A DNA stretch of 36,063 nt from Limnohabitans sp. (GTDB lineage Bacteria; Pseudomonadota; Gammaproteobacteria; Burkholderiales; Burkholderiaceae_C), in contig VEQC01000005.1 in NCBI GenBank assembly GCA_018883455.1, forward strand, positions 1 to 36,063. The letters are read 5' to 3'. A program made the position numbers and the translations under genes. The notes below the pieces were generated by a model, which was not told where the DNA came from, searched no databases, and saw only the letters and a program-made list of their open reading frames with translations. Shown in pieces: positions 15,108-28,233 of this stretch (within the stretch, counting starts at the first letter, position 1; each line of letters begins with the position of its first letter).

Positions 15108-16073
15108 ATGCGCATTTTGGGTATCGACGAAATCACCTTTGCGGCGACGGATTTGTCCCGCTGCCAGCAATTCTTTGCCGACTGGGGCATGACGCTGGTG
15201 GAAGAAGCGCCCACGCGGCGTGTCTTTGAAACCCTCAATGGCTGCCGCGTGATCGTGGCCGACCCCAGCCACCCGGGCTTGCCCGCAGGCGTGGAGGCCG
15301 ATCCCACGGTGCGTGAGTTGGTGTGGGCCGTTGGCGAAGCGAGCGAATTGGAGGCCATCGCCCAAGCCATGCAGGGGCAACCTGGTTTTGTGCGAACGTC
15401 TGATCGTGTGGGCTGCACAGACCCCAATGGTCTGGCCATTCGGGTGCAGGTCACCCGCAAAAAACCCCTCACCCTGCCCTGCGCGCAAATGAACACGTGG
15501 AACGAGCGTCCGCGCTTGAACCAGCCGAGCCCGGCGTATGAACGGGCTCAACCGGTTGAGGTCGGGCATGTCGTGTTTTTTGTGACTGACTTGCAGGCCG
15601 TCACCGCGTTTTATGAAAGCGTGCTGGGCTTTGTGCTCTCTGACCGCTACCCAGGGCGTGGCCACTTCCTGCGCTGCGCCCCACGCGGGGGGCACCACGA
15701 CCTCTTCTTGTTGCAGACCCCGGAGGCGCGCAGGGGTCTCAACCATGTGGCCTTCACCGTGCGCGACGTGCACGAGGTGTTTGGAGGAGGCCTGCACATG
15801 TCACGCTGCGGTTGGGAGACCGAGCTGGGCCCCGGCCGTCACCCCGTTTCCTCGGCCATCTTCTGGTACTTCAACAGCCCCGCGGGTGCCCTCTGGGAGT
15901 ACTACACCGACGAAGACGAATTGACCGCCGAGTGGCAGCCCCGCGACTTCACGCCCGGGCCCACGGTGTTTGCCGAATGGGCGATCAAGGGCGGTATCGA
16001 TGGCCACACACGGCGGCAACACCTTGCAGCGGCCCCGAGTGGCCAATTCATGACCGACAAACCCAAGCCTTAA
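15108..16073 (+). CDS. Two-domain VOC extradiol-type dioxygenase
   Basis: Starting at ATG 15108 ('MRILGIDEITFAATD'), the protein has 321 aa. It has two vicinal-oxygen-chelate modules (about 1-115 and 150-280), the length and layout of type I extradiol dioxygenases such as catechol 2,3-dioxygenase and BphC. Candidate Fe(II) ligands in the second module are H154 ('VGHVVFFV'), H213 ('LNHVAFTV') and E264 ('LWEYYTD'), matching the His-His-Glu spacing of catechol 2,3-dioxygenase. It probably cleaves a catechol-like or hydroxylated heteroaromatic ring beside the hydroxyls, giving a yellow semialdehyde. It leads the plus-strand operon of the island, 37 nt before the small HTH-like gene, with the operator 107 nt upstream. 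The ribosome site is weak. A glyoxalase or other VOC role is possible but less likely given the complete ligand set. Confidence 0.82.
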   Translation: MRILGIDEITFAATDLSRCQQFFADWGMTLVEEAPTRRVFETLNGCRVIVADPSHPGLPAGVEADPTVRELVWAVGEASELEAIAQAMQGQPGFVRTSDRVGCTDPNGLAIRVQVTRKKPLTLPCAQMNTWNERPRLNQPSPAYERAQPVEVGHVVFFVTDLQAVTAFYESVLGFVLSDRYPGRGHFLRCAPRGGHHDLFLLQTPEARRGLNHVAFTVRDVHEVFGGGLHMSRCGWETELGPGRHPVSSAIFWYFNSPAGALWEYYTDEDELTAEWQPRDFTPGPTVFAEWAIKGGIDGHTRRQHLAAAPSGQFMTDKPKP

Positions 16074-16110
16074 GGCCCCCTCGCCCCTGCGCTGATTGGA
16101 GGACAAGCCC

Positions 16111-16335
16111 ATGCCATCTCGCCCGCTCTACAACGAAACCCATCAACACCGCGACGGTGCCCCCACCGCCTATGAGAGCCTCTTAGGTGATGCCTTGGAG
16201 CGTGCGTTCGCCATGGGCATCCATGACCTCGAGGGGCTGGTGGCCTACCTCAACGCCTCCGGCCCCACGGGCCCCAATGGGCAGGCCTGGACGCCCGCGC
16301 TCTATCAACAAGAAATGGCGCGCTTGGGCGCCTGA
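16111..16335 (+). CDS. Small protein with recombinase-like helix-turn-helix
   Basis: 74 aa starting at ATG 16111, preceded by a strong GGAGG ribosome site (16098-16102); the ORF-track start at 16096 lies before this site. The N-terminus is polar ('PLYNETHQHRDGAP'). The C-terminal half, 'DLEGLVAYLNASGPTGPNGQAWTPALYQQEMARLG', resembles the small helical DNA-binding module of serine recombinases ('...LN..G..T..G..WT...'). No catalytic recombinase part is present. I recall small proteins of this kind being annotated beside ring-hydroxylating oxygenase genes, but know of no proven function. It lies between the extradiol and Rieske oxygenase genes, 37 nt after the former and 24 nt before the latter. 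It could be an accessory regulator or an oxygenase assembly factor. Confidence 0.75.
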   Translation: MPSRPLYNETHQHRDGAPTAYESLLGDALERAFAMGIHDLEGLVAYLNASGPTGPNGQAWTPALYQQEMARLGA

Positions 16336-16359
16336 CCCGCCTTGCCCTTGGAGTTCCGC

Positions 16360-17403
16360 ATGCACACCGCTGTTTTGACCCCACCAGTCGACCCCATCGA
16401 GCAGGTGCTCTCGGTCGGCTTGAAAGACCTTTGGTATCCCATTTGCCCCTCGGGCTTTGTGAAGGACAACCCCGTCTCGCTGCGCCGACTGGGCTACAAA
16501 ATCGTGCTTTGGCGTGATGCGAGTGGCCAAGTCCACGCCTTGGAAGACCACTGCCCGCACCGAGGCGCGCCGCTCTCCCTGGGCGTGATTCTGGGCGACC
16601 GCATGGCCTGCGCCTACCACGGCGTGGAGGTGCGCTGCGATGGCACGGTCATGCGCGTGCCGGGCAGCCCCGGCTGCAAACTCGAGGGCGCACGACCCAC
16701 GCGTCGCTTTTTGACCGAGGAGCGTCACGGGGCTATTTTTCTCTACAACGCCACCGACCCGCACCTCGACAGCGCGCCGCCCCTGGAACTGCCCGAACCG
16801 CTTGCCTCGCCCGAGTGGTCGTCTTTCCTCTGCTACGTCGAATGGGCCTGCGACTACCGCTACGTGATGGACAACGTGATGGACCCCATGCACGGCGTCT
16901 ACTTGCACAAGCAGTCGCACACCATGAGTGAGGGCGACGCGCACGCGGAATTTCAAATTCGCGACTTGCCCGAAATCGAGGGGTTTGTGTTCGAGAAAAA
17001 AGGCCAGCGCGATGTGAACTTCGACTGGACCGAATGGCGCGAAGCCGGCCACATTCACACCATGCGCCTAGAGATCCCCTACCCCAAGACGGGTGGCCCA
17101 GGGGGCAACTTCACGATTGTGGGGTCGTATGTGCCCGCCGAAAAAAATGTGACCGGGGTGTTCTTTTGGCGCTGCCGCAAAGTCAGCGGTTGGCAGCGCG
17201 ACACCTGGCGTTTCCTCTACAAAAACCGTCTGGAGCAACGGCACTGGAACGTGCTCGAGCAAGACCGCGTGGCCATTGAAGCCATGGAGCCCAACGCCAA
17301 CACCCGCGAGTTTCTCTACCAGCACGATTTGGGCATCGTGCGCTTGCGTCGTCGCTTAAAAGCCCTGGCGCAAGCCCAGATCGACCGCAGCACCACGGCC
17401 TGA
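16360..17403 (+). CDS. Rieske non-heme iron oxygenase, alpha subunit
   Basis: The ORF-track start at 16342 is a TTG; ATG 16360 with TTGGAG six bases before it is the better start, giving 347 aa. The Rieske [2Fe-2S] ligands are C65-P-H67 and C84-x2-H87. The catalytic domain has 'NVMDPMHGVYLH', giving D175-x2-H178-x4-H183: bridging Asp plus two iron-binding His, in the spacing of naphthalene dioxygenase. The enzyme should hydroxylate, dihydroxylate or O-demethylate an aromatic acid. The length suits single-component alpha3-type oxygenases of the phthalate/vanillate group. No beta subunit, ferredoxin or reductase gene occurs in the window, so electrons must come from a partner encoded elsewhere. 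It ends the plus operon, 19 nt from the stop of the converging FAD monooxygenase gene. Confidence 0.92.
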   Translation: MHTAVLTPPVDPIEQVLSVGLKDLWYPICPSGFVKDNPVSLRRLGYKIVLWRDASGQVHALEDHCPHRGAPLSLGVILGDRMACAYHGVEVRCDGTVMRVPGSPGCKLEGARPTRRFLTEERHGAIFLYNATDPHLDSAPPLELPEPLASPEWSSFLCYVEWACDYRYVMDNVMDPMHGVYLHKQSHTMSEGDAHAEFQIRDLPEIEGFVFEKKGQRDVNFDWTEWREAGHIHTMRLEIPYPKTGGPGGNFTIVGSYVPAEKNVTGVFFWRCRKVSGWQRDTWRFLYKNRLEQRHWNVLEQDRVAIEAMEPNANTREFLYQHDLGIVRLRRRLKALAQAQIDRSTTA

Positions 17404-17422
17404 GTGCCGGGCGCGCCTGGCC

Positions 17423-18562
17423 TCAAATGGGGGGCAAGGCCACGCCCCAGGCGTCGTAGCCATAGACCCAATCGGCATTGCCCTGGGTTTTGAGCCACTG
17501 ATTGCCGCGCGAGGCGATCTGAATTTTGGCGGTGCGCTCCTGTCTGGCTTGCGCGTAGACCTGCAAAGCTTGCAACGCGCCTGCGCGCGTACTCACCCCT
17601 GCGAGGCACCGGCCCAGTACCACCCCGTCCTCAATCGCCATGCCCGCGCCTTGCGCCATGAAGGGCAACATGGGGTGGCAGGCATCGCCCAGCAAAGTCA
17701 CCGCCTGCATCGACCACTGCGGCAGAGGATCGCGTTCGTACAAGGCGCTCTTGAGCGTGGTGTCACAGGCCTCGAGCAAGGCGCGCGCATCGGGGTGAAA
17801 GTCTTGGTAGAACGCGCGCAGTTCGGCCACATCGCCCGGGCTCGTCCAGGACTCCTCGGTCCAGCTCTCCTGACCGGTGGTGGCAAACACAAAGGTCTCA
17901 CGCCCTTGGCTGAGCGGAAAAGTAACGATCTGGCTCTGCGGATTGGGGCCCCACCATTTGGTAAAGGCCTCGATTTCGGGAACGTGGCGCACCCGCTGCG
18001 TGGGCACCACCGAGCGGAAAGAGACGACCCCGGTAAAGCGCGGGTACTCCTCGCCAAACAAGGCCGCACGCACGCGCGAGTGAATGCCGTCGGCGCCCAC
18101 CACCACATCGAAGTGCGCCTGCGCACCGCCCACGAACTGCAAGTGCACCCCTTGCGCGTCTTGGGTGAGGCGCTCCAAGCGGTGGTCAAAGCGCATTTGG
18201 CTCAAGGGAAACTGCTCGGCCAACGCGGTGATCACATCGGCCCGGTGAATGGTCACTTGGGGTGCGCCATAACGGCGCTCGGCCTCATCGCCCATGGGCA
18301 GGCGCGAGGTTTCGAGCCCGGTGTCCCAATCGCGGCTGATGCGAAACGTGGGCTTGGCCCCCATGCGCCGAACGGCCGGCCCCGCCCCGAGGCCATCGAT
18401 GGCGCGCACCACATTGGGAGTGAGGTTGATATCGGCGCCCACGCGCGCGAAATCTTTGGCCTGCTCGAAGACCGTGACCATATGGCCGCGTTGGTGCAAA
18501 GCGATGGCGGCAGACAAGCCCCCCACACCCCCGCCCACAATGCCGATGTTGAGTCCTGTCAT
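17423..18562 (-). CDS. FAD-dependent monooxygenase (6-hydroxynicotinate/salicylate hydroxylase-like)
   Basis: Starting at ATG 18562 ('MTGLNIGIVGGGVGGLSAAIAL'), the protein has 379 aa; the ORF-track extension to 18676 lies upstream of the FAD fold. It is a group A flavoprotein hydroxylase: GxGxxG (10-15), the 'GADGIHSRVR' motif and 'LLGDACHPMLPFMAQGAGMAIEDGVVL' for FAD/NAD(P)H binding. Several stretches ('ISRDWDTGLETSRLPMGDEAERRYGAPQVTIHRAD', 'WVYGYDAWGVAL') resemble, from memory, 6-hydroxynicotinate 3-monooxygenase NicC. That would imply hydroxylation, possibly decarboxylative, of a hydroxylated aromatic or pyridine carboxylate. Salicylate hydroxylase is the other close family. It is the last gene of the 13-gene minus operon, 19 nt after the SDR. 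No other nic genes (nicX, nicF, nicE) are seen, so a true nicotinate pathway is not supported. Confidence 0.85.
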   Translation of the reverse strand: MTGLNIGIVGGGVGGLSAAIALHQRGHMVTVFEQAKDFARVGADINLTPNVVRAIDGLGAGPAVRRMGAKPTFRISRDWDTGLETSRLPMGDEAERRYGAPQVTIHRADVITALAEQFPLSQMRFDHRLERLTQDAQGVHLQFVGGAQAHFDVVVGADGIHSRVRAALFGEEYPRFTGVVSFRSVVPTQRVRHVPEIEAFTKWWGPNPQSQIVTFPLSQGRETFVFATTGQESWTEESWTSPGDVAELRAFYQDFHPDARALLEACDTTLKSALYERDPLPQWSMQAVTLLGDACHPMLPFMAQGAGMAIEDGVVLGRCLAGVSTRAGALQALQVYAQARQERTAKIQIASRGNQWLKTQGNADWVYGYDAWGVALPPI

Positions 18563-18581
18563 GGCGTGCTTCCCCCTGCGA

Positions 18582-19358
18582 TCAAACACTGTTGAAGGAG
18601 CCGCCATCGAGCAGAAGGTTCTGCCCGTTGATGTACCCCGCGTGCACACTGCACAAAAAAGCACAGGTGTGCCCAAATTCAGAAGGCTGACCCAAGCGGC
18701 GCGCAGGGTGTTTGGCCAAACGGCGCTCGACCACTTGCGCCACGCTCAGGCCCTCGCGCTCGGCTTGGCGCGCAAAGTTGCTCGCCAGCCGGGCCGTGTC
18801 AAAAGTACCCGGCAGCAAATTGTTGATGGTCACCCCGCTCGAAGCCACGCTGCGCGCAAGCCCCGCCACAAAACCGGTGAGCCCACTGCGCGCTCCGGTG
18901 GAGAGCCCTAGGCCCTCGACCGGCGATTTCACGGCACTTGAGGTGATGTTGATGATGCGCCCAAAGCCACGCGCCATCATGCCATCGACCGTGGCCTTGA
19001 TGAGTTCGATGGGGGCGAGCATATTGGCGTCAATGGCCCGCAGCCACGCCTGACGATCCCATTGCCGAAAATCCCCCGGGGGGGGGCCGCCGGCATTGGT
19101 CACCACGATGTCGTAATCGCGCGTGACCGCAAAAATGCGCGCGCGTCCCTCTTCGGTCGTGACGTCGGCACAAATCGCTCGCGCGTGGCCGGGGCCGCTC
19201 GTGTTGAGGCGATCGACGGCCGCTTGTAGCGGCCCCTCGGTGCGCGCGACCATCGTCACGTGCACGCCTTCGGCCACCAAGGCCTGCGCGCAGGCCAGCC
19301 CCAAGCCCGCGCTGGCCCCGCAGACCAGCGCTTGTTTGCCCGAGATGCCAAGATCCAT
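18582..19358 (-). CDS. SDR-family oxidoreductase with non-canonical active site
   Basis: 258 aa starting at ATG 19358, with GGGAG eight to nine bases before it. The Rossmann-fold N-terminus 'ALVCGASAGLGLACAQAL' and 'VTNAGGPPPG' (NAG motif) mark a classical-length SDR. However, where Ser-Tyr-Lys should lie the sequence reads 'NITSSAVKSPVEGLGLSTGARSGLTGF'. The Ser is present (S140/S141), but the YxxxK pair is replaced by S/T and R (around 153-157). Divergent SDR subfamilies with this 'LGLS..AR.GL' form exist and are often annotated as 3-oxoacyl-ACP reductase or glucose dehydrogenase without proof. It could use altered chemistry, or bind rather than reduce its ligand. It sits between the Bug receptor and FAD monooxygenase genes in the minus operon. 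Confidence 0.85.
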   Translation of the reverse strand: MDLGISGKQALVCGASAGLGLACAQALVAEGVHVTMVARTEGPLQAAVDRLNTSGPGHARAICADVTTEEGRARIFAVTRDYDIVVTNAGGPPPGDFRQWDRQAWLRAIDANMLAPIELIKATVDGMMARGFGRIINITSSAVKSPVEGLGLSTGARSGLTGFVAGLARSVASSGVTINNLLPGTFDTARLASNFARQAEREGLSVAQVVERRLAKHPARRLGQPSEFGHTCAFLCSVHAGYINGQNLLLDGGSFNSV

Positions 19359-19383
19359 ACAGGGTGCTCCCGTTGCAGAGGGG

Positions 19384-20409
19384 TTAATCCGCCGTGATGC
19401 GGCGCGCGCGAATCACGCGCGCCCAATCGGCCGTTTCCTTGCGCATGTGCGCGGCGAATTCGCCCGGGCGCATGGGGGTGAGTTGCAAACCTTGGGCCTG
19501 GAGTTTCTCCAGCACTGCGGGTTGCGACAGAATCTCGTGCGCGTCTAGCGCCAATTGCTCGGCCAGCGCGGCGGGCGTGCCCGCCGGGGCGAGCAAGCCG
19601 TACCAAGAGGTGACGATCACCCCGGCCACGCCCTGCTCGGCCAAGGTGGGAATATCCGCCGCCACGGGACTGCGCGTGGTGTCGGTCACGCCCAAGGCCA
19701 CCAGCTTGCCGCTGCGGATAAAGGGCAGCGTAGCGGGCAAGTTGCTAAACATCATGGGCACCACGCCCGCGAGCATGTCGTTGAGCGCGGGGCCTGTGCC
19801 TTTGTAGGGCACGTGCAGGATCTCGGTCTGGGTTTGCGATTTGAACAACTCACCCGCCAGGTGTAAGCCACTGCCCACACCGGGTGACGCATAGGAGAGA
19901 CTATCGGGCTGGCGTTTGGCGCGTGCGAGCAACTCACTCAAGCTCGTGATCTTGGATTGCGGGCTGACCACCAGCACATTGGGCGCTTTGGCCAACATGG
20001 TCACAGGGGTGAAATCACGCTCGACGTTGAACGGGAAATTGGGCATCAAGGTGGGGTTGATGGTGAGGTTGCCCGCAGGCACCACCAGCAAAGTGTGGCC
20101 ATCGGGTTTACCACGGCGCACTTTGTCCATGCCCAGATTGCCCGCCGCACCTGGCAAGTTCTCCACCACGGCGGCTTGGTCATAGCGTTGCGCCAGACCA
20201 TCGGCCAGCAATCGTGAGAGCGTGTCTACAGGCCCGCCGGGCGGAAACGGCGAGATGATGGCAAAGCGCTCCTGGCGCAATTGCTTGACCACGGCCGGGT
20301 CGGGTTGGGCTTGTGCAAGCCCCACCGTGGCCCAGGCGAGCAACACCCCGCCAAGCCAAAGCCTTCTTCCCCAATGCCCTTGACCGACCCGCTTCTTCGC
20401 GTCACGCAT
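19384..20409 (-). CDS. Bug/TctC-family periplasmic solute receptor
   Basis: The start is ATG 20409 ('MRDAKKRVGQGHWGRRLWLGGVLLAWATVGLAQAQ'), preceded by AAGGAG; the ORF-track extension upstream lies inside the ALDH gene. The 341-aa product has a signal peptide (basic n-region, hydrophobic 'LWLGGVLLAWATVGLA', cleavage near AQA). The mature receptor shows TctC/Bug marks: 'FAIISPFPPGGPVDTLSRLLADGLAQR', 'VVENLPGAAGNLGMDKVRRGKPDGHTLL', 'YASPGVGSGLHLAGELF' and 'VPYKGTGPALNDMLAGVVPMMF'. These proteins bind carboxylates, including aromatic acids, in the periplasm. No TctA/TctB membrane genes are near, as is common for the many orphan Bug proteins of Burkholderiales. It lies 20 nt after the ALDH gene within the minus operon, so it probably captures the pathway substrate or a related acid. 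Confidence 0.92.
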   Translation of the reverse strand: MRDAKKRVGQGHWGRRLWLGGVLLAWATVGLAQAQPDPAVVKQLRQERFAIISPFPPGGPVDTLSRLLADGLAQRYDQAAVVENLPGAAGNLGMDKVRRGKPDGHTLLVVPAGNLTINPTLMPNFPFNVERDFTPVTMLAKAPNVLVVSPQSKITSLSELLARAKRQPDSLSYASPGVGSGLHLAGELFKSQTQTEILHVPYKGTGPALNDMLAGVVPMMFSNLPATLPFIRSGKLVALGVTDTTRSPVAADIPTLAEQGVAGVIVTSWYGLLAPAGTPAALAEQLALDAHEILSQPAVLEKLQAQGLQLTPMRPGEFAAHMRKETADWARVIRARRITAD

Positions 20410-20429
20410 GACAGACTCCTTGTTGTACT

Positions 20430-21902
20430 TTAGCCCGCGGCCCAAGGCAGCGGGTTGTCGTTGAGGCCCCAGTAAAAACTTTTTTGCGCGGTGTAGGCCA
20501 GAATCCCCTCGCGCCCCTTTTCTTGGCCGTAGCCACTCATCTTCACGCCCGAGAAGGGCGTGCTGATGGAAAAGAGTTTGTAGGTGTTGACCCAAACCGT
20601 GCCCACTTGCAAGGCCGAGCCGATGCGCCAAGCGGTTTTGTAATCGCGCGTCCAAATGCCCGAGGCCAAGCCATAGAGGTTGTCATTGCATTGCGCGATC
20701 AGGTCGGCCTCATCGCGCCAGGGCAAGAGGGCGAGCACCGGCCCAAAGATTTCTTCCTGACACAGGCGGGTGCGGTTGTCGAGCCCTTCAAAAACCGTGG
20801 GTAGGTAGTAGCTGCCGTGGTCGTAATACCCCCCCGTGGGGCGAGTTCCGCCAGCGAGCAAGCGTCCGCCCTCTTGCAAACCGAGCTCGACGTAACGCTC
20901 CACGCTCGTGCGGTGGGCCTGATTGACCAGCGGGCCCATTTGGGTGTCTTCGCGCGCGGGGTCGCCTACGCGCAGGGCTTGCACGCCTTGGAGCAGTCGC
21001 GCTTTGAATTCGTCGTACACCTGCGCGTGCACGAAGGCGCGCGAGCCCGCCACGCAAGACTCCCCAGAAGAGCTGAAGATGCCGTAGAGGACGCCCGCCA
21101 CCGCGTGGTCGAGGTCGGCGTCGGCACACACGATGGTGGGCGACTTCCCACCCAGTTCGAGCGACGTGGGCATGAGCTTTTCAGCGGCAAGGCGTTGAAT
21201 GCCCATTCCGACCGTGGTGCCACCGGTAAATGCGATGCGTTGAATCAGGGGGTGTCTGACCAAGGCGTCGCCCACCACACTGCCCTTGCCCGGCAATACG
21301 CTCACGATGCCATCGGGCACCCCGGCCTGCTGGCAGATCTTGGCCAATTCAATGGCCATGCGGGGGGTGACTTCAGCGGGCTTGATCACCACCGCGCAGC
21401 CTGCGGCCAGTGCGGGCGCGAGCTTTTGCGCCTCGCTGGCGATGGGGCTGTTCCACGGCGTGATGGCCCCCACGACACCCAGGGGCTCGTGCACACTCAG
21501 GGTGAGGAAGTCCCCCCGCGAGGGGGTGAGGGTTTCTTCCCAAGTCTCGGCCGCGGCAGCAAAGAACTGAAAAGTGCCCGCCGCGCTGGCGACCAAGGCG
21601 CGGCATTCCCGAATGGGCTTGCCGTTATCGAGGCGTTGCAATTGCGCGAGGCCTTCGGCGTTGGCCCGAATGCCCGCCGCGACTCGGTGCAAGAGCGCCG
21701 CGCGCTCATGGTGCTTGAGACGCGCCCAATTGGGTTTCCAGCGCGCGGCCTCGGCCGCTTGCACGGCCTCGTCCACGTCGGCGCTCGTCCCCGCGTGCAG
21801 AGTGGCCACGGTGGAGCCGTCATGCGGGTATTCGGTGGCGTAGCGCGGCCCTGAGGCATCGCGCCATCGTCCGGCGAAAAAGGTTTGCAGGTGTTCGCTC
21901 AT
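20430..21902 (-). CDS. Aldehyde dehydrogenase (NAD(P)+-dependent)
   Basis: 490 aa, the normal ALDH length, with all catalytic residues in place: N151 ('TPWNSP'), K174 ('VIKPAE'), general base E249 ('SLELGGKSP') and nucleophile C283 ('SSGESCVAGSR'). The C-terminal 'EEIFGPVLALLPW' and 'PFSGVKMSGYGQEKGREGILAYTAQKSFYW' are also standard. It oxidises an aldehyde to its acid in the cytoplasm. Within an extradiol cluster it could act on a muconic-semialdehyde-type ring-cleavage product; equally it could take the aldehyde made by the TPP enzyme encoded two genes upstream. It is 7 nt after the aspartate-dehydrogenase-like gene and 20 nt before the Bug receptor gene, so it is surely co-transcribed. The exact aldehyde is not readable from the sequence. 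Confidence 0.93.
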   Translation of the reverse strand: MSEHLQTFFAGRWRDASGPRYATEYPHDGSTVATLHAGTSADVDEAVQAAEAARWKPNWARLKHHERAALLHRVAAGIRANAEGLAQLQRLDNGKPIRECRALVASAAGTFQFFAAAAETWEETLTPSRGDFLTLSVHEPLGVVGAITPWNSPIASEAQKLAPALAAGCAVVIKPAEVTPRMAIELAKICQQAGVPDGIVSVLPGKGSVVGDALVRHPLIQRIAFTGGTTVGMGIQRLAAEKLMPTSLELGGKSPTIVCADADLDHAVAGVLYGIFSSSGESCVAGSRAFVHAQVYDEFKARLLQGVQALRVGDPAREDTQMGPLVNQAHRTSVERYVELGLQEGGRLLAGGTRPTGGYYDHGSYYLPTVFEGLDNRTRLCQEEIFGPVLALLPWRDEADLIAQCNDNLYGLASGIWTRDYKTAWRIGSALQVGTVWVNTYKLFSISTPFSGVKMSGYGQEKGREGILAYTAQKSFYWGLNDNPLPWAAG

Positions 21903-21909
21903 GCAGGTC

Positions 21910-22710
21910 TCACACGGCCACGGGGGCTACACGGTTGTGCAAAAAGCGCAAAGCAGAGAGCACGGTCAAGGCCGAGGTCTTGGGGTTTTCGGCCAGCGGT
22001 TTACCGCGCATGGTCACCCGCATCTCGCCAAAGGCCCCCCGCACCTCATACTCATGAATGTTCTCGCTCACGCTTGGGTCGGCCACCAAACGCACCTGGG
22101 TGCGGTCTAAGCCAATGCCCGCGAGCGAGAGCGTGGCCGCCACGTTGGCGTTCTTGGGATAGAGGCGTGCAGCTTCGCGCGCGCTGGCCTCGAGAATCAC
22201 CGCCGGCGCTGTCAACTGCGCCAAATCAACCACGTCTTCGGCCGGCGTGCCGCGCCAACCCAGCGGGGGCTTGCGTCCGGTGTAAATCAAGGCGTCGATG
22301 CCTTGGTGGCGGGCCGCCGAGATGGCGTCAATCCCGCCAATCGCCCCGGCGAGCAAATGCAACTGCGTACCACCCGCTTGGGCCGCGGCTTCGAGTTCCT
22401 CGGGCAAACCGGCTTGCGCCAACGCACCCACCGAGAGCACGGCGCATTCCACGCCCCGGCGCAAGGCCGGTAGCACATGCGCGACCAAGGCGCTATGGCT
22501 CGCGCACTCCAGCACCAACTGGGCCGAGGGCGGTACGGCGTCCACGGCTTGGGCGTGCGCCCCGAGCTGTGCCTGCACCCGCGCGACGGACGCGGGCGAG
22601 ACCACCACATGCGTGATGCGCAAGGCGCTCTGGCCTTGCAGACGCTGGAAGAGGGTCGAGCCAATGGCCCCAAACCCCACCAACACCACATCTTGTGTTT
22701 TGTTCGCCAT
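21910..22710 (-). CDS. nadX: Aspartate dehydrogenase-like oxidoreductase (NadX family)
   Basis: 266 aa. The N-terminal Rossmann fold ('VVLVGFGAIGSTLFQRL') is followed by the DUF108/aspartate-dehydrogenase catalytic region with 'LLAGAIGGIDAISAARHQGIDALIYTGRKPP', 'YPKNANVAATLSLAGIGLDRTQVRLVADP' and 'HEYEVRGAFGEM'. Characterised members interconvert L-aspartate and iminoaspartate/oxaloacetate with NAD(P)H and may feed NAD synthesis. Here nadA and nadC are absent and the gene is locked inside a catabolic operon (3 nt after the TPP enzyme, 7 nt before ALDH). A role in making or removing an imine or amino acid in the pathway is therefore more likely than cofactor synthesis. No signal peptide, no truncation. 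The symbol marks the family, not a proven role. Confidence 0.85.
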   Translation of the reverse strand: MANKTQDVVLVGFGAIGSTLFQRLQGQSALRITHVVVSPASVARVQAQLGAHAQAVDAVPPSAQLVLECASHSALVAHVLPALRRGVECAVLSVGALAQAGLPEELEAAAQAGGTQLHLLAGAIGGIDAISAARHQGIDALIYTGRKPPLGWRGTPAEDVVDLAQLTAPAVILEASAREAARLYPKNANVAATLSLAGIGLDRTQVRLVADPSVSENIHEYEVRGAFGEMRVTMRGKPLAENPKTSALTVLSALRFLHNRVAPVAV

Positions 22711-22713
22711 CGC

Positions 22714-24378
22714 TTAATCTCCCGCACGTTTGGGGGGGCCTGCAAACTTCACGGCAAAGGGGCCCCAAGACGCCATGTCCACCTCCACCACGCTCGGGCC
22801 AGTGTGCGCCAAGGCCTCGGCCAAGACAGCGTGCGCCTGATCAGCTTGGCTCAAGCGCCAATGGGGCAAGGCCATGCTCGCGCACAAGCCCGCGAAATCG
22901 GGGGTATGCAAGTCGACATAGCAATGGCGGCTGCCGTAGAGATCGTCTTGAATGTTGCGAATCACGCCATAGCTTCGGTCGTTCATCACGATGAACGTCA
23001 CGTTGGCGTTTTCTTGCACCGCGCAGGCGAGCTCGCCCAAGTTGAGCATGAAGCCGCCGTCCCCACACAGGGCCACGGTTTTGCGGCCCAATTGGTGCGT
23101 GGCGTCGGCCACCGCCGTGCCCACGCCCATGGCGAGGCCTTGTCCAATGCCCCCGCCAAGCGCGTGTACGCCTGCACGCGGGTGATTGAGCACGGGCGCA
23201 CGGTTACCCCACATGGTGTTGGACAAGGTGATGTCGCGCACCCACCAAAGCGCTTGACCCGCCACCTCGGCCAGCGCGTCCTTGAGCGCCACATAGGGGC
23301 CTAGCGTGGCATCGACTGCTTGGGCCGCAGCGGCACGGGTTTGTTGCACATCGCGCGCGTATTGCGGGTCGATTTGCATGCGGCCCTCCAATCGATCGGC
23401 CAAGGCATCGAGCGTGAGCTGGGCGTCTCCACACACAAAGTAGGCGCTGTCGTAGGCGCGGTTTTGCGTGAGCGGATTGGCGTCGATGCGGTAACGCGTG
23501 GCGGGCAAGGCCAGCTTATAGGTCAAGGTCTCGTTGCTGCGCAAACGCGAGCCCACCACCAAGAGCGCGTCCACACTGGCATAAAAAGCCTCGGTGGGTT
23601 TTTGCAAGTTGTACGAGCCCAAAGAGGCAGGGTGGTCTTCGGGCAAAACGCCTCGCCCCTGCACGGAGCTCACGACCGCCCAGCCCATGGCCACCAAGCG
23701 GCGTACGGCAGCGCTTGCGCCCCGCGCGCCACCGCCAAGCCACAGCAGGGGCCGACGCGCGGTCATCAGGCGTTGCGCCAAGGCGTCCACGGCGGTGCTC
23801 TGCGGGGCGAGCGGTGCCACGGCCAAGGGCGCGCAATCGGGCGGCAGGGGCAAGGTCATCTTCTGCACATCGATGGGAATTTCAATGCTCACAGGGCCAC
23901 ATGGCGGCGTTTGGGCGATGCGCACCGCCTCGCGCAAAGTGGCCAGCGCGGTTTGCGGATCGCGAATGCGAAACGCCTCCTTGCCCACGGACTTGAGCAT
24001 GGCAAGTTGGGCGGGGTGCTCGTGAATGAAACCCAAATCGCGATCCAGAAACGGCGATTCAATCTGTCCGGTGAGGTGCAGCAAGGGGGTGCCCGCCGTG
24101 AGGGCTTCGACCATCGCGCCCGCGGCGTTGCCGCAGCCCGTGCCGGTGCTGGTCACGCATACCCCCAAGGTGGCGCTCACCCGGGCATAGGCATCGGCCA
24201 TGTTGCAAGCCCCCGCCTCGCCGCGTGCGGACACAAAACGAATCTGGCCACGCCGATGAAAGGCATCCAGGATGGGCATGTTGTGAATGGAGATCACGCC
24301 AAAGGCGGCCCTCACGCCGCACTGCTCCAAAAAGCGCGCGACTAACTCGCCAACGGTGATGGTGGGGGGGGTACTCAT
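22714..24378 (-). CDS. Thiamine-diphosphate enzyme (acetolactate synthase/benzoylformate decarboxylase-like)
   Basis: 554 aa with the three-domain TPP layout: an N-terminal pyrimidine-binding domain with catalytic Glu E54 ('SARGEAGACNMADAYAR'), a central domain (about 190-330) and a C-terminal PP domain. The last has the metal-diphosphate motif 'CGDGGFMLNLGELACAVQENANVTFIVMND'. Enzymes of this group decarboxylate 2-oxo acids to aldehydes or join the resulting acyl unit to an acceptor. With ALDH two genes downstream, a 2-oxo-acid to aldehyde to acid sequence is plausible. The visible sequence does not decide between decarboxylase and carboligase. It lacks an adjacent ilvN-type small subunit, arguing against housekeeping acetolactate synthase. 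Its ATG overlaps the IclR gene's stop by 4 nt, so translation of the two is coupled. Confidence 0.88.
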   Translation of the reverse strand: MSTPPTITVGELVARFLEQCGVRAAFGVISIHNMPILDAFHRRGQIRFVSARGEAGACNMADAYARVSATLGVCVTSTGTGCGNAAGAMVEALTAGTPLLHLTGQIESPFLDRDLGFIHEHPAQLAMLKSVGKEAFRIRDPQTALATLREAVRIAQTPPCGPVSIEIPIDVQKMTLPLPPDCAPLAVAPLAPQSTAVDALAQRLMTARRPLLWLGGGARGASAAVRRLVAMGWAVVSSVQGRGVLPEDHPASLGSYNLQKPTEAFYASVDALLVVGSRLRSNETLTYKLALPATRYRIDANPLTQNRAYDSAYFVCGDAQLTLDALADRLEGRMQIDPQYARDVQQTRAAAAQAVDATLGPYVALKDALAEVAGQALWWVRDITLSNTMWGNRAPVLNHPRAGVHALGGGIGQGLAMGVGTAVADATHQLGRKTVALCGDGGFMLNLGELACAVQENANVTFIVMNDRSYGVIRNIQDDLYGSRHCYVDLHTPDFAGLCASMALPHWRLSQADQAHAVLAEALAHTGPSVVEVDMASWGPFAVKFAGPPKRAGD

Positions 24379-25199
24379 GAATTCATCCTGATTTTGGGAT
24401 GCTCGCTGCCGCTCGTCGGGGCGTGGCGGATGCGATCGGACAATTGCCCCGCGGCGGCACGGACTTGCTCGACCAAGCCGGGGAGAACTGCGTCGTCGAT
24501 GCGTTGGGCCGGCACGGCAATGCTGATGGCGGCGATCACCGCCCCGCGCGCGTTGATCACGGGCGCGGCCACGGTGGAGATGCCCGTCTCGAAACCGCCC
24601 ATGCTCACGCCGTAACCGCGCGCGCGGTCTTCTTCAATCAAGGCCTTGAGCTGCGCGCGGCTCGTGGGGGTGCGCGGAGTGAAGGCTTGCAGGGGTTCGT
24701 CGGGGTATAGGGCTTTGAGCGCCTGCGCGTCGAGATCGGCCATCAAGAGCCGCCCCAGCACGGTGGCGTGTGCGGGCAATCGCGCGCCCACTTGAATGGA
24801 TTGGAACAGCGCACTGCGGCCCGCGGCCTTGGCGACAAACACGACTTGGGTGGCGTCGCGCACCACGATATGGGCCGAGTAACCGCATTGGTCGCGCAGC
24901 GCTTCAATGACCGGTCGGCCATGCTCGGTCAAATCCATCGCCGCGAGCAATTCAAAACCCAAGCGCAACACCGCCAAGCCCAAGCGATAGCTCACGCCAT
25001 CGTCGGCGCGCTCGACAAAGCCGCCTTGCTCCAAGGTGTAGAGCATGCGAAAGACCGACGCGCGGGGCAAGCCCAAGCGGCGCGAGAGTTCGGCGCCGCT
25101 CAGCTCGCGCTCCTCACGACTGAACTGGGTGAGCAGTTGCAAGCCCCGGGCGAGCGCTGGCACGGTGTAGCGGTCGTCGCTTTTGTCGTCCGTGCTCAT
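24375..25199 (-). CDS. IclR-family transcriptional regulator
   Basis: The start is ATG 25199 ('MSTDDKSDDRYTVPALARGLQLL'), which overlaps the hydrolase stop as ATGA; the ORF-track start at 25232 is inside the hydrolase gene. 274 aa: an N-terminal winged helix-turn-helix (about 10-75; 'LSGAELSRRLGLPRASVFRMLYTLEQGGFVER') and a C-terminal effector domain (about 85-260) with 'RARGYGVSMGGFETGISTVAAPVINARGAVIAAISIAVPAQRI'. Members of this family respond to aromatic acids and intermediates, and may activate or repress. Being sandwiched between structural genes with 4-nt overlaps on both sides, it is made whenever the operon is transcribed, which creates a feedback loop. The two matching palindromic elements at 14977 and 30134 are the best candidates for its operators. 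Confidence 0.93.
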   Translation of the reverse strand: MSTDDKSDDRYTVPALARGLQLLTQFSREERELSGAELSRRLGLPRASVFRMLYTLEQGGFVERADDGVSYRLGLAVLRLGFELLAAMDLTEHGRPVIEALRDQCGYSAHIVVRDATQVVFVAKAAGRSALFQSIQVGARLPAHATVLGRLLMADLDAQALKALYPDEPLQAFTPRTPTSRAQLKALIEEDRARGYGVSMGGFETGISTVAAPVINARGAVIAAISIAVPAQRIDDAVLPGLVEQVRAAAGQLSDRIRHAPTSGSEHPKIRMNS

Positions 25200-26047
25200 G
25201 CAACCCGCTCCGATCGTGCAGGCTGATCCCACCCCAAAAGGGTGTGCACCGCCGCGGCCGCCTCAATGGCGCAGGCATGCCCCACGGGCCCGAGGCTTTG
25301 CCAAGTCACCCCCGCGTCCTGCGCCACCGCTTGGCAAGCTGAGGCGGGGGTAATGCCATCGGCCTCACCGCTGGCCACCCAGCGGGGGCACTGCACCTGC
25401 GCGAGATCCCGCGCGAGCACGGCGTTGGCGAGCATGTGGGCGGCCTGGGTGTAACCCGCCACCTGAATTTGCGCCATCGTCGCACGCACGGCCTCGATTT
25501 GCTCGGGGCGCGCGTTTGGCGAGAGCATGGCGTGCGCGCGTTCGGCCGCCATGCCTTCGGGCCCCAAACGCGCGAGCGTCTCGAGGCGGGTGCGTAATTT
25601 TTCTTCGCGCACGGGCGCCGGCGCGTCGCCATAGCCACGCGCGGGCGCGAGCAAAACCAAGCCCTGCACCCGCTCGGGGGCCAAGGCCGCGGCGCTGGCG
25701 GCCATCAAGCAGCCCAAAGAGTGCCCCACCAAAACCACCGCAGACGTGGCGTGCAAGGCATCGAGCCAGGCCCAGAGGTGGCGCGCGTAGTCCAGCGCCT
25801 GGGGCGACGCATTGGCCACGGGGTCACTCTGCCCATAGCCCGGCGCGTCCCACGCCAGCACCCGCAAGTCCTCTCGATCTTGCACCCAGGTGAGTTGGGC
25901 GAGCCAACTGGCCGAACCCGAGCCGATGCCGTGCAAAAGCACGTGCGTGACCGCACTCGCTTGGCCCGATTCGCGCCACTGCACCGCCCCGAAGGGCGTG
26001 CGCACGCGTTGGGCGGGGAAAGCGTCGGTTGAGGCCGCAGCGGTCAT
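25196..26047 (-). CDS. Alpha/beta hydrolase
   Basis: The start is ATG 26047 ('MTAAASTDAFPAQRVRTPFGAVQWRESG'), giving 283 aa. The alpha/beta-hydrolase fold is shown by 'VLLHGIGSGSASW' (oxyanion region) and nucleophile elbow 'VGHSLGCL' (S110). The acid is D230 in 'ASGEADGITP' and the His H257 in 'GPVGHACAIEAA', a complete triad. In extradiol pathways such enzymes cleave the C-C bond of ring-opened keto acids; others open lactones, esters or enamides. The sequence alone does not say which. It does not look, from memory, like the N-formylmaleamate deformylase NicD, despite the NicC-like monooxygenase in the operon. It lies 29 nt after the cupin gene and overlaps the IclR gene by 4 nt. Confidence 0.88.
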   Translation of the reverse strand: MTAAASTDAFPAQRVRTPFGAVQWRESGQASAVTHVLLHGIGSGSASWLAQLTWVQDREDLRVLAWDAPGYGQSDPVANASPQALDYARHLWAWLDALHATSAVVLVGHSLGCLMAASAAALAPERVQGLVLLAPARGYGDAPAPVREEKLRTRLETLARLGPEGMAAERAHAMLSPNARPEQIEAVRATMAQIQVAGYTQAAHMLANAVLARDLAQVQCPRWVASGEADGITPASACQAVAQDAGVTWQSLGPVGHACAIEAAAAVHTLLGWDQPARSERVA

Positions 26048-26076
26048 GGTCGGGTCGGACACGAAGGGCTGGGGCT

Positions 26077-26679
26077 TTAGCGCTTGAGCTTGGCCAGAGG
26101 GGAGTCCGGCGGGTACACCGGGGTGATGGGCTTGGGCGAGCCCAGCATCACGCACATGAGGGCGTCTTCATCGCCAATGTTGTGCTCCTCGCGGTAGACG
26201 CCCGGAGGCACCGAAATCAAATCGCGCTCGCCCAGTACGGCCTCCCAGCGCTGGCCGTCTTTTTCGCAAATGACTTTCATCGCGCCGCGCATGACAAAGA
26301 AAATTTCCTCCACGTCGTAGTGGATGTGCGAGGGGCCGATGTGCCCCGCAGGAATCACCATGGTGGAGAAGGTGAAATGCGCCGCAGGCACGGTGTTGAC
26401 ATCTTTGGCCACGCCGGTTCCGCCGGTGCCCACATAGCGCATTTGCGCACGCCGGTAGCGTGGGTCGTAGTCGGCCTGAAATTTGAGGGCATCCCAGTCG
26501 TAGCGGCGCGTGGACTTGCGCGCCACGCGGCTCTCCATCCATTGCTCAAAACTTTGTCCGGGCTGCTGCATCATGGCCGCCTGAATGTCGGCTTCAGGCG
26601 GGATCTGGGCATCTTGCAAGCCGCGCGCGTTGAAGACGGGTTGGTTGGCGGCGGGGGCTGTTGGGAAAGGGGCATTCAT
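26077..26679 (-). CDS. Cupin-domain protein, possible dioxygenase
   Basis: The start is ATG 26679 ('MNAPFPTAPAANQPVFNARGL') with GAGGAG about eight bases before it, giving 200 aa. The ORF-track extension is antisense to the SDR gene upstream. After a polar N-terminal arm (1-100) comes a single cupin barrel. Motif 1 is 'GHIGPSHIHYDVEEIFFVMRG' with H118, H120 and E124 or E125; motif 2 is 'GERDLISVPPGVYREEHN' with H166. That is a full set of metal ligands. Possible roles are ring-cleaving or side-chain dioxygenase, isomerase, or a sugar/acid-binding cupin; family resemblance alone cannot choose. Its place among catabolic genes, 11 nt after the SDR and 29 nt before the hydrolase, favours an enzymatic step. 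If it is a dioxygenase, the island would hold two unrelated ring-cleavage candidates. Confidence 0.85.
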   Translation of the reverse strand: MNAPFPTAPAANQPVFNARGLQDAQIPPEADIQAAMMQQPGQSFEQWMESRVARKSTRRYDWDALKFQADYDPRYRRAQMRYVGTGGTGVAKDVNTVPAAHFTFSTMVIPAGHIGPSHIHYDVEEIFFVMRGAMKVICEKDGQRWEAVLGERDLISVPPGVYREEHNIGDEDALMCVMLGSPKPITPVYPPDSPLAKLKR

Positions 26680-26690
26680 GCAGGAACTCC

Positions 26691-27440
26691 TCAATTGAAC
26701 ACAAAGCCGCCATTGACCGGCAGCAACTGGCCTGTGATGAAACCGCTCGCACGCGTGAGCAAAAAGAGCGCGGCGGCATTCACATCCTCGGGAACTTGGG
26801 GGCGACGAATGGCGCGCCCCTGCAAATAGTGCGCGTGCCGCTCTTGGGGCACGTATTCGGTGGCCTCGACCAGGGTCAGGCCTGGCGCGATGGCGTTGAC
26901 GGTGATGCCGTCCTCCCCCAGCTCGCGCGCGAGGGAACGTGTCATGGCAATCACCGCCCCTTTGCTCGCCACATAGGCGAGCAAGCGCGGTGGGCCCCAC
27001 AAGGCGGTGTCGGAGGCCAAATTGACCACCCGCCCCGAACCACTCGCCGCCAAATGAGGGCGCGCCTCGCGGGTCACGAGCCAGGTGCCGCGCACATTGA
27101 CGTTCATCACCTGATCAAACACCTGCGGCGAGAGCTCATCCAAGGTCTTGCCGCCGGAGTTGGTGATGGCGGCGTTGTTGATCAAGCCATCGAGCCCTCC
27201 GAGCTGAGACACCGCCGCTGCGACCCCTTCGCGAATGCTCGCCTCATCGGACAAGTCAAGCGGCACATAAGCCGCCGCCTCTCCCAGCGCTGCGGCCAGC
27301 GCGCGGCCGCGCTCATGCAAGACATCGCTGATCACCACTTTCGCCCCCGCGGCCACCAAAGCGCGCGCGAAGCTCTCGCCCAGACCGCGCGCTGCGCCGG
27401 TGACCAGCACCCGGCGGCCTTGGAGTTGGATTTCGGTCAT
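26691..27440 (-). CDS. SDR-family dehydrogenase
   Basis: The start is ATG 27440 ('MTEIQLQGRRVLVTGAARGLGESFARAL'), giving 249 aa; the upstream ORF-track extension overlaps the permease gene. It is a classical SDR: TGxxxGxG (14-21), NNAA motif ('LINNAAITNSGG'), N114, and the full catalytic set S143, Y156 and K160 ('NLASDTALWGPPRLLAYVASKGAV'). It should interconvert an alcohol and a ketone with NAD(P). In a cluster with a Rieske oxygenase it could be the cis-dihydrodiol dehydrogenase that rearomatises the ring, or a dehydrogenase of a side-chain alcohol. It is the first enzyme gene after the ABC importer in the minus operon, 13 nt after the permease and 11 nt before the cupin. Confidence 0.92.
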   Translation of the reverse strand: MTEIQLQGRRVLVTGAARGLGESFARALVAAGAKVVISDVLHERGRALAAALGEAAAYVPLDLSDEASIREGVAAAVSQLGGLDGLINNAAITNSGGKTLDELSPQVFDQVMNVNVRGTWLVTREARPHLAASGSGRVVNLASDTALWGPPRLLAYVASKGAVIAMTRSLARELGEDGITVNAIAPGLTLVEATEYVPQERHAHYLQGRAIRRPQVPEDVNAAALFLLTRASGFITGQLLPVNGGFVFN

Positions 27441-27453
27441 GCGCTTGGGCCCT

Positions 27454-28233
27454 TCATGCACCCATGCGCTCAACGCTGGGCAAATAATGCAACACCCGGC
27501 GCTCGGCCAGGACCACGGCGTAATAGGCCACGATGCCAATCACCGTGAGCGCGCCAATGACGACGAACACCCCCGCGGTATTGCCCTGGCCTTCAAAGAA
27601 GACGAGCAAATAACCCAGGCCCATATTGCCGCCCACCAACTCCCCCACCACCACACCAATGACGGCCAAGGTGCTGGCAATGCGCAAGCCCGAGAACAGC
27701 GGGGGCAAGGTGGTCGGAAACTCGACCATGCGAAAGACCTGAAAGCGCGTGGCGGAGAACGAGCGGGCCAAGTTGATCAGGTCCGCGTCCATCGCCCGCA
27801 TGGCGCTGAGCACATTGATCAGCACCGGAAAGAAGACGATGAGTACCGCAACCAAAATCTTGGGGTAAATGGTGTAGCCAAGCCACATCACAAAAAGCGG
27901 GGCGAACGCGACCTTCGGCGCGATCTGCAACGCCAGCAGATAAGGGGAGAGCACGGCCTCCACCCGGGGCGAGACGCCCAGGGCGTAACCGATCATGGCG
28001 CCCAGCCAAGAGCCCAACACAAAGCCAATGACCACTTCGAGCGCCGTCACCCCCGCATGCCAGAGCAAACGCTCCCCGCCCCATATCCGGCCCAACTCCT
28101 GCACCACCACGCTCGGCGGGGGCAAGACAAATTCCGGCACGCCCAAGAGCGCGGGCACGTACTCCCAGGTCAGGAGGAAGACCAAGAGCACCGCCACACT
28201 CCAGGCGGCCGTGACAAGACGTTCGTTTTGCAT
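27454..28233 (-). CDS. ABC transporter permease (SsuC/TauC/ThiX type)
   Basis: 259 aa with about six membrane helices and the binding-protein-dependent permease signature in the cytoplasmic loop: 'LARSFSATRFQVFRMVEFPTTLPPLFSGLRIASTLAVIGVVVGEL' (the EAA-like loop that contacts the ATPase). The family includes importers of sulfonates, taurine, thiamine precursors, riboflavin and aromatic acids. It works with the receptor (24 nt upstream) and the ATPase gene before it. ATG 28233 is the first start and fits the gene spacing. The substrate is not encoded in any visible motif. Confidence 0.93.
   Translation of the reverse strand: MQNERLVTAAWSVAVLLVFLLTWEYVPALLGVPEFVLPPPSVVVQELGRIWGGERLLWHAGVTALEVVIGFVLGSWLGAMIGYALGVSPRVEAVLSPYLLALQIAPKVAFAPLFVMWLGYTIYPKILVAVLIVFFPVLINVLSAMRAMDADLINLARSFSATRFQVFRMVEFPTTLPPLFSGLRIASTLAVIGVVVGELVGGNMGLGYLLVFFEGQGNTAGVFVVIGALTVIGIVAYYAVVLAERRVLHYLPSVERMGA

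Follow-up and report, generated by a model that had tools for sequence, protein, structure and literature searches.

Comparative sequence evidence that HTH_62, a small recombinase-like helix-turn-helix protein, is probably an accessory component of one Rieske-oxygenase clade

The beta subunits of Rieske dioxygenases of the alpha3beta3 type are NTF2-like proteins of about 170 aa. Serine recombinases (PF00239, PF07508) combine an N-terminal catalytic Resolvase domain (PF00239) with a C-terminal helix-turn-helix (HTH). The Pfam entry PF20552 (HTH_62), whose members are named "recombinase-like helix-turn-helix domain-containing protein" in RefSeq, is a domain name alone, and no paper on this family or its function was found in the open-access literature searched. 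In the NdmCDE N7-demethylase complex (caffeine), NdmE is a GST-like structural protein; its postulated role is to bring the Rieske cluster of NdmD into line with NdmC, a protein that has no Rieske cluster of its own (PMC4408171).

The locus analysed here lies in a window, meaning the whole stretch of DNA studied, of 36,063 nucleotides. An earlier note on this DNA had described a 74-aa ORF with a strong ribosome site, located between a ring-cleaving and a Rieske gene, and both points were confirmed. The features used below are the following:

15108-16073, + strand: two-domain VOC / extradiol-dioxygenase-like gene (PF00903, E 3e-18), directly 5' of the HTH_62 gene
16098-16103, + strand: ribosome-binding site GGAGGA, 7 nt 5' of the HTH_62 ATG, read directly in the sequence
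16111-16335, + strand: HTH_62 gene, ATG at 16111, TGA at 16333-16335, encoding a protein of 74 aa (P0001)
16141-16203, + strand: stretch specific to the HTH_62 family, residues 11-31 (56-row alignment)
16249-16332, + strand: recombinase-like segment of HTH_62, residues 47-74 (LN..G...GxxWT followed by helix 3, at the recognition-helix position)
16360-17403, + strand: Rieske non-heme iron oxygenase, 347 aa (PF00355 and PF19112 VanA_C), the proposed partner of HTH_62

P0001 is a full-length member of PF20552: the profile search aligned its residues 5-74 with model positions 3-72 of 72 (106.5 bits, the curated cut-off being 27 bits), and a chance match is excluded by the E-value of 7.1e-31. Comparison with eight relatives (Nei-Gojobori) gave dN values of 0.14-0.25 and dS values of 1.0-2.4 (dN/dS about 0.1-0.2), the oxygenase values being much alike; since dN is low against dS, the HTH_62 gene is under constraint at the protein level. 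The ORF at 16111-16335 is a genuine protein-coding gene, and it is present as a single copy in the genome from which the window comes.

The HTH core pattern LN..G....W was common to P0001 and serine recombinases, and the PF20552 model also reports the C-terminal HTH of true, Resolvase-domain serine recombinases. Weak PF20552 matches found outside oxygenase clusters in genome sweeps were mostly serine recombinases, and nine of the ten that were scanned together carried a Resolvase domain with a C-terminal HTH of the PF20552 type, as did two further loci (L018 and L142). The Resolvase domain PF00239, which true recombinases have, gave no match in P0001 (Pfam). The proposals that the C-terminal half is serine-recombinase-like and that the catalytic part is missing were thus both borne out.

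Charge separates the two groups. Over the C-terminal 45 residues, net charge averaged -2.7 in HTH_62 proteins encoded in operons (range -7 to 0, n = 122) versus +3.7 in recombinase HTHs (range +1 to +6, n = 21); the ranges do not overlap, and the basic HTH of recombinases was not found in the operon proteins. Entire HTH_62 proteins had net charges of -1 to -10, every member being acidic. In the third helix, position 7 is Arg or Lys in 60% of recombinases and mostly Ala, Gln or Glu in the HTH_62 family, whereas position 8 is Val or Leu in recombinases and Glu in 68% of the family; the first turn of this helix is acidic in HTH_62, and Arg at position 11 is kept in both groups. The Arg-Gly-Gly loop of recombinases is replaced by Asn-Gly or Ser-Gly in the HTH_62 examples read. 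HTH_62 no longer has the positive charge that such a domain needs to hold on to DNA, and a DNA-binding role is disfavoured.

In the 56-row alignment, residues 11-31 form a tail (HQxR..PT) followed by helix 1 (YExLLGDxxER), with Q12, T19, E22, L24, L25, G26, D27, E30 and R31 invariant; L47, N48, G51 and W60 are invariant in the core common with recombinases. The tail and first helix are the family-specific part, and residues 11-31 are a candidate partner-binding surface. The AlphaFold2 model (mean pLDDT 86.9) was all-helical, with three helices at residues 20-34, 40-50 and 62-73; pLDDT exceeded 90 across most of residues 21-70 and confidence was low in the conserved tail. A tail that is conserved yet poorly predicted would fit a segment that becomes ordered on a partner. 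Neither the comparison of the model with PDB folds (best E 1.0) nor a profile search of PDB sequences gave a significant match.

For a less biased test of linkage, the Pfam HTH_62 model and the oxygenase protein were both searched in one set of 399 genomes sampled across the phylum, using thresholds of at least 40 bits for a strong HTH_62 and at least 45% identity for a clade oxygenase. Each was present in 15/399 genomes, and these were the identical 15 genomes, all 15 pairs lying in one locus with the two genes adjacent or about 2.6 kb apart. By hand calculation (the inverse of the number of possible 15-genome subsets of the 399), the chance of identical sets is about 1e-27, a value that assumes independent genomes; they are not fully so, but they span Alpha-, Beta- and Gammaproteobacteria. 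Oxygenases at 37-39% identity (partial matches) in further genomes were without HTH_62.

The same association was found in a scan of genome contigs with a family alignment: in 79 of 80 loci (L020-L099) the HTH_62 gene is followed immediately, on its own strand, by a homologue of the window oxygenase, these loci being the best 80 of 179 confirmed relatives, picked by conserved peptide and leaning to close relatives. At the eightieth (L046) the contig ends 12 nt past the HTH_62 gene, and the gap between the two genes was 1-247 nt where start codons were resolved. Among 13 clade oxygenases sampled at the order level, 12 came with HTH_62, either encoded in their cluster or joined to them as a fusion. 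The remaining one was an oxygenase at 55% identity with no HTH_62 nearby (G692:C17; L184, 27000-43000); two more oxygenases are encoded in that genome, one of them in a cluster that includes HTH_62 and the other bearing a degenerate HTH_62 fusion. Among plasmids the clade was discrete, with identities of about 46% and above over 90% of the length, followed by values of at most 29% over comparable length. The inspected clade plasmids have the small gene, including those of Klebsiella and of three Alphaproteobacteria in which HTH_62 has diverged beyond the reach of tblastn; it was not found in the two inspected plasmid records from outside the clade. The earlier note had named the lack of a conserved association with oxygenase genes as what would count against its proposal, and the association proved to be near absolute.

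HTH_62 is conserved in Alpha-, Beta- and Gammaproteobacteria and in one Streptomyces record, and annotated neighbours display the same gene association in Caballeronia, Klebsiella, Acinetobacter, Novosphingobium, Pseudosulfitobacter, Paracoccus and Nitratireductor. No HTH_62 was found in viral contigs, and PHROGs and NCBIfam had no matching model. Two "phage" matches lie in contigs with the label Acinetobacter phage, and both contigs contain the bacterial operon; the public record L107 (CAKLQH020000010.1, labelled Acinetobacter phage MD-2021a) has the bacterial catabolic operon together with pga genes and is probably bacterial DNA filed as phage. In some PLSDB "plasmid" records (L149, L156 and similar ones) the cluster adjoins chromosomal genes such as speA/speB; these records may be fragments of chromosomes.

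Natural fusions of the two genes were also observed. In one genome (G398, locus L016), a single 427-aa protein comprises three domains that each exceed the Pfam cut-off, namely HTH_62 (78 bits), Rieske and VanA_C; the fusion is in frame and lies inside the same pathway cluster, in the order SDR-cupin-ThDP-AspDH-ALDH-VOC-[HTH_62-Rieske] (L165). The second fusion (G692:C21; L125/L161) is degenerate, its N-terminal HTH_62 segment scoring 21.7 bits, below the cut-off of 27. In the window, the HTH_62 and oxygenase genes share one reading frame, in which one TGA is the only stop that separates them (16333-16359), and the oxygenase starts 24 nt past this stop, so that fusions of the kind observed need just one stop to be lost. 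When the two were modelled as one chain, using rows translated through the HTH_62 stop (AlphaFold2), the oxygenase and HTH domains were well predicted and the linker between them was of low confidence, so that the model bears on the two folds rather than on their docking. Evolutionary distances of HTH_62 and oxygenase were correlated with r = 0.92 over 82 pairs, a value that partly reflects common descent of the cluster; correlations of HTH_62 with other cluster proteins were lower (0.38-0.83).

The window oxygenase is distant from all solved structures. Its top sequence match was 7qwt (E 2e-18), a Rieske protein that the fold search lists as a guaiacol O-demethylase; dicamba, ketosteroid and saxitoxin-pathway oxygenases ranked next. 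The recurrent cluster (15108-27539 in the window; also L182 and L183) encodes the Rieske oxygenase, an SDR, an extradiol-type VOC protein, an alpha/beta hydrolase, a cupin, a ThDP enzyme, AspDH, ALDH and IclR, and it recurs in Klebsiella pneumoniae and Acinetobacter baumannii; most annotated clusters include IclR regulators. In the window (1-36063), unlike in Klebsiella and Acinetobacter, neither a ferredoxin nor a reductase gene was recognised for the oxygenase, and the electron donor is presumably encoded elsewhere. Nothing on this cluster composition was found in the open-access papers searched. Kynurenate degradation was considered as the pathway, but this was a guess to which the literature search gave no support, and it was rejected. 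In A. baumannii, A1S_0956-0958, annotated as L-aspartate dehydrogenase, betaine-aldehyde dehydrogenase and acetolactate synthase, were up 2.2-2.4-fold with mucin (PMC5757984). Matched by name and order alone, these genes probably make up the distal portion of this cluster, and their response to mucin is a weak indication that it is expressed.

Judged from these sequence comparisons, HTH_62 is probably an accessory subunit, or a tightly bound assembly factor, of one Rieske-oxygenase clade, derived from a recombinase HTH; the role as accessory subunit is favoured because of the distance correlation together with the fusion. The more specific proposal, that a recombinase DNA-binding domain with inverted charge was recruited to a distinct oxygenase clade as its obligate non-catalytic subunit, has somewhat better than even chances of being correct. 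The ancestral HTH, a DNA-binding domain from the C terminus of a serine recombinase, would have lost its basic DNA-contact residues, and the HTH_62 tail and helix 1 would dock on the oxygenase. Once docked, HTH_62 may either stabilise or assemble the oxygenase oligomer or shape the docking site of the ferredoxin or reductase, and full oxygenase activity would then need both proteins together. HTH_62 is thus seen as probably an unrecognised working part of the oxygenase rather than a gene switch. The earlier suggestion that the domain could be reused for contacts with the oxygenase is supported by comparative evidence, namely the near-absolute association and a natural fusion; the physical contact itself is predicted.

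Co-occurrence, adjacency, fusion and co-evolution could also be accounted for by a maturation factor or chaperone dedicated to this oxygenase clade, which would help to insert the Rieske cluster or iron, or fold the oxygenase, and then not stay in the active enzyme; the small size and acidity of HTH_62 agree with this. Such a role is nevertheless considered unlikely, as a covalent fusion is easier to explain with a stable subunit, and the alignment has no conserved Cys, and no conserved His except H11, to bind metal. Less probable again, at about one chance in ten in our judgement, is the auxiliary regulator that the earlier note had offered, a small DNA-binding protein of the catabolic operon using its HTH as recombinases do. 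Its ancestry in a DNA-binding HTH and its position in catabolic operons would suit that role, which is disfavoured by the acidity of every member, the recognition helix with Arg/Lys largely replaced by Ala, Gln or Glu, and the IclR regulators already present in most annotated clusters; a fusion to the N terminus of the oxygenase would also be odd for a regulator.

HTH_62 might alternatively act on another cluster protein (ferredoxin, reductase or transporter) and not directly on the oxygenase, since its gene lies between the ferredoxin and oxygenase genes in Klebsiella and Acinetobacter, and precedes three ABC-transporter genes that separate it from the oxygenase gene in some Alphaproteobacteria (Rhodobacterales-type clusters). 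This is a slightly poorer prospect than the regulator, because the oxygenase is the constant neighbour while ferredoxin and transporter genes are not constant, and because it is the oxygenase that is the fusion partner and gives the highest distance correlation. That HTH_62 is a functionless recombinase relic beside the oxygenase would accord with its derivation from a family of larger proteins whose catalytic part it no longer has, but is very improbable in view of the purifying selection, the retention across three proteobacterial classes and in the Streptomyces record, and the near-perfect co-occurrence with the oxygenase clade.

What is new beyond the annotation of HTH_62 is its co-occurrence with the oxygenase, its fusion to it and the inversion of its charge. 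If the accessory-subunit reading is true, the protein represents a subunit type of which the literature searched yielded no description and which Klebsiella pneumoniae and Acinetobacter baumannii encode as well. The usual Rieske oxygenase assay combines oxygenase, ferredoxin and reductase; if the clade needs HTH_62, attempts to assign a substrate could fail when no protein but the oxygenase is used. HTH_62 would, moreover, exemplify cleanly how a DNA-binding domain is turned into a protein-protein module, of which separate, fused and degenerate forms exist.

Among known systems, P0001 has in common with serine recombinases the LN..G...(G)G.W and third-helix pattern; unlike them, it has no Resolvase domain, is acidic, and has the Arg/Lys residues of the loop and recognition helix largely replaced. 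Like the beta subunits of alpha3beta3 Rieske enzymes, it is a small non-catalytic protein encoded beside the alpha subunit, but at 74 aa and predicted all-helical it differs from them, and Pfam returned HTH_62 alone at E up to 10, with no match to a beta-subunit family profile. NdmE, although its family is unrelated to HTH_62, is a precedent in that it is a structural protein of non-canonical type partnering a Rieske-type oxygenase (PMC4408171).
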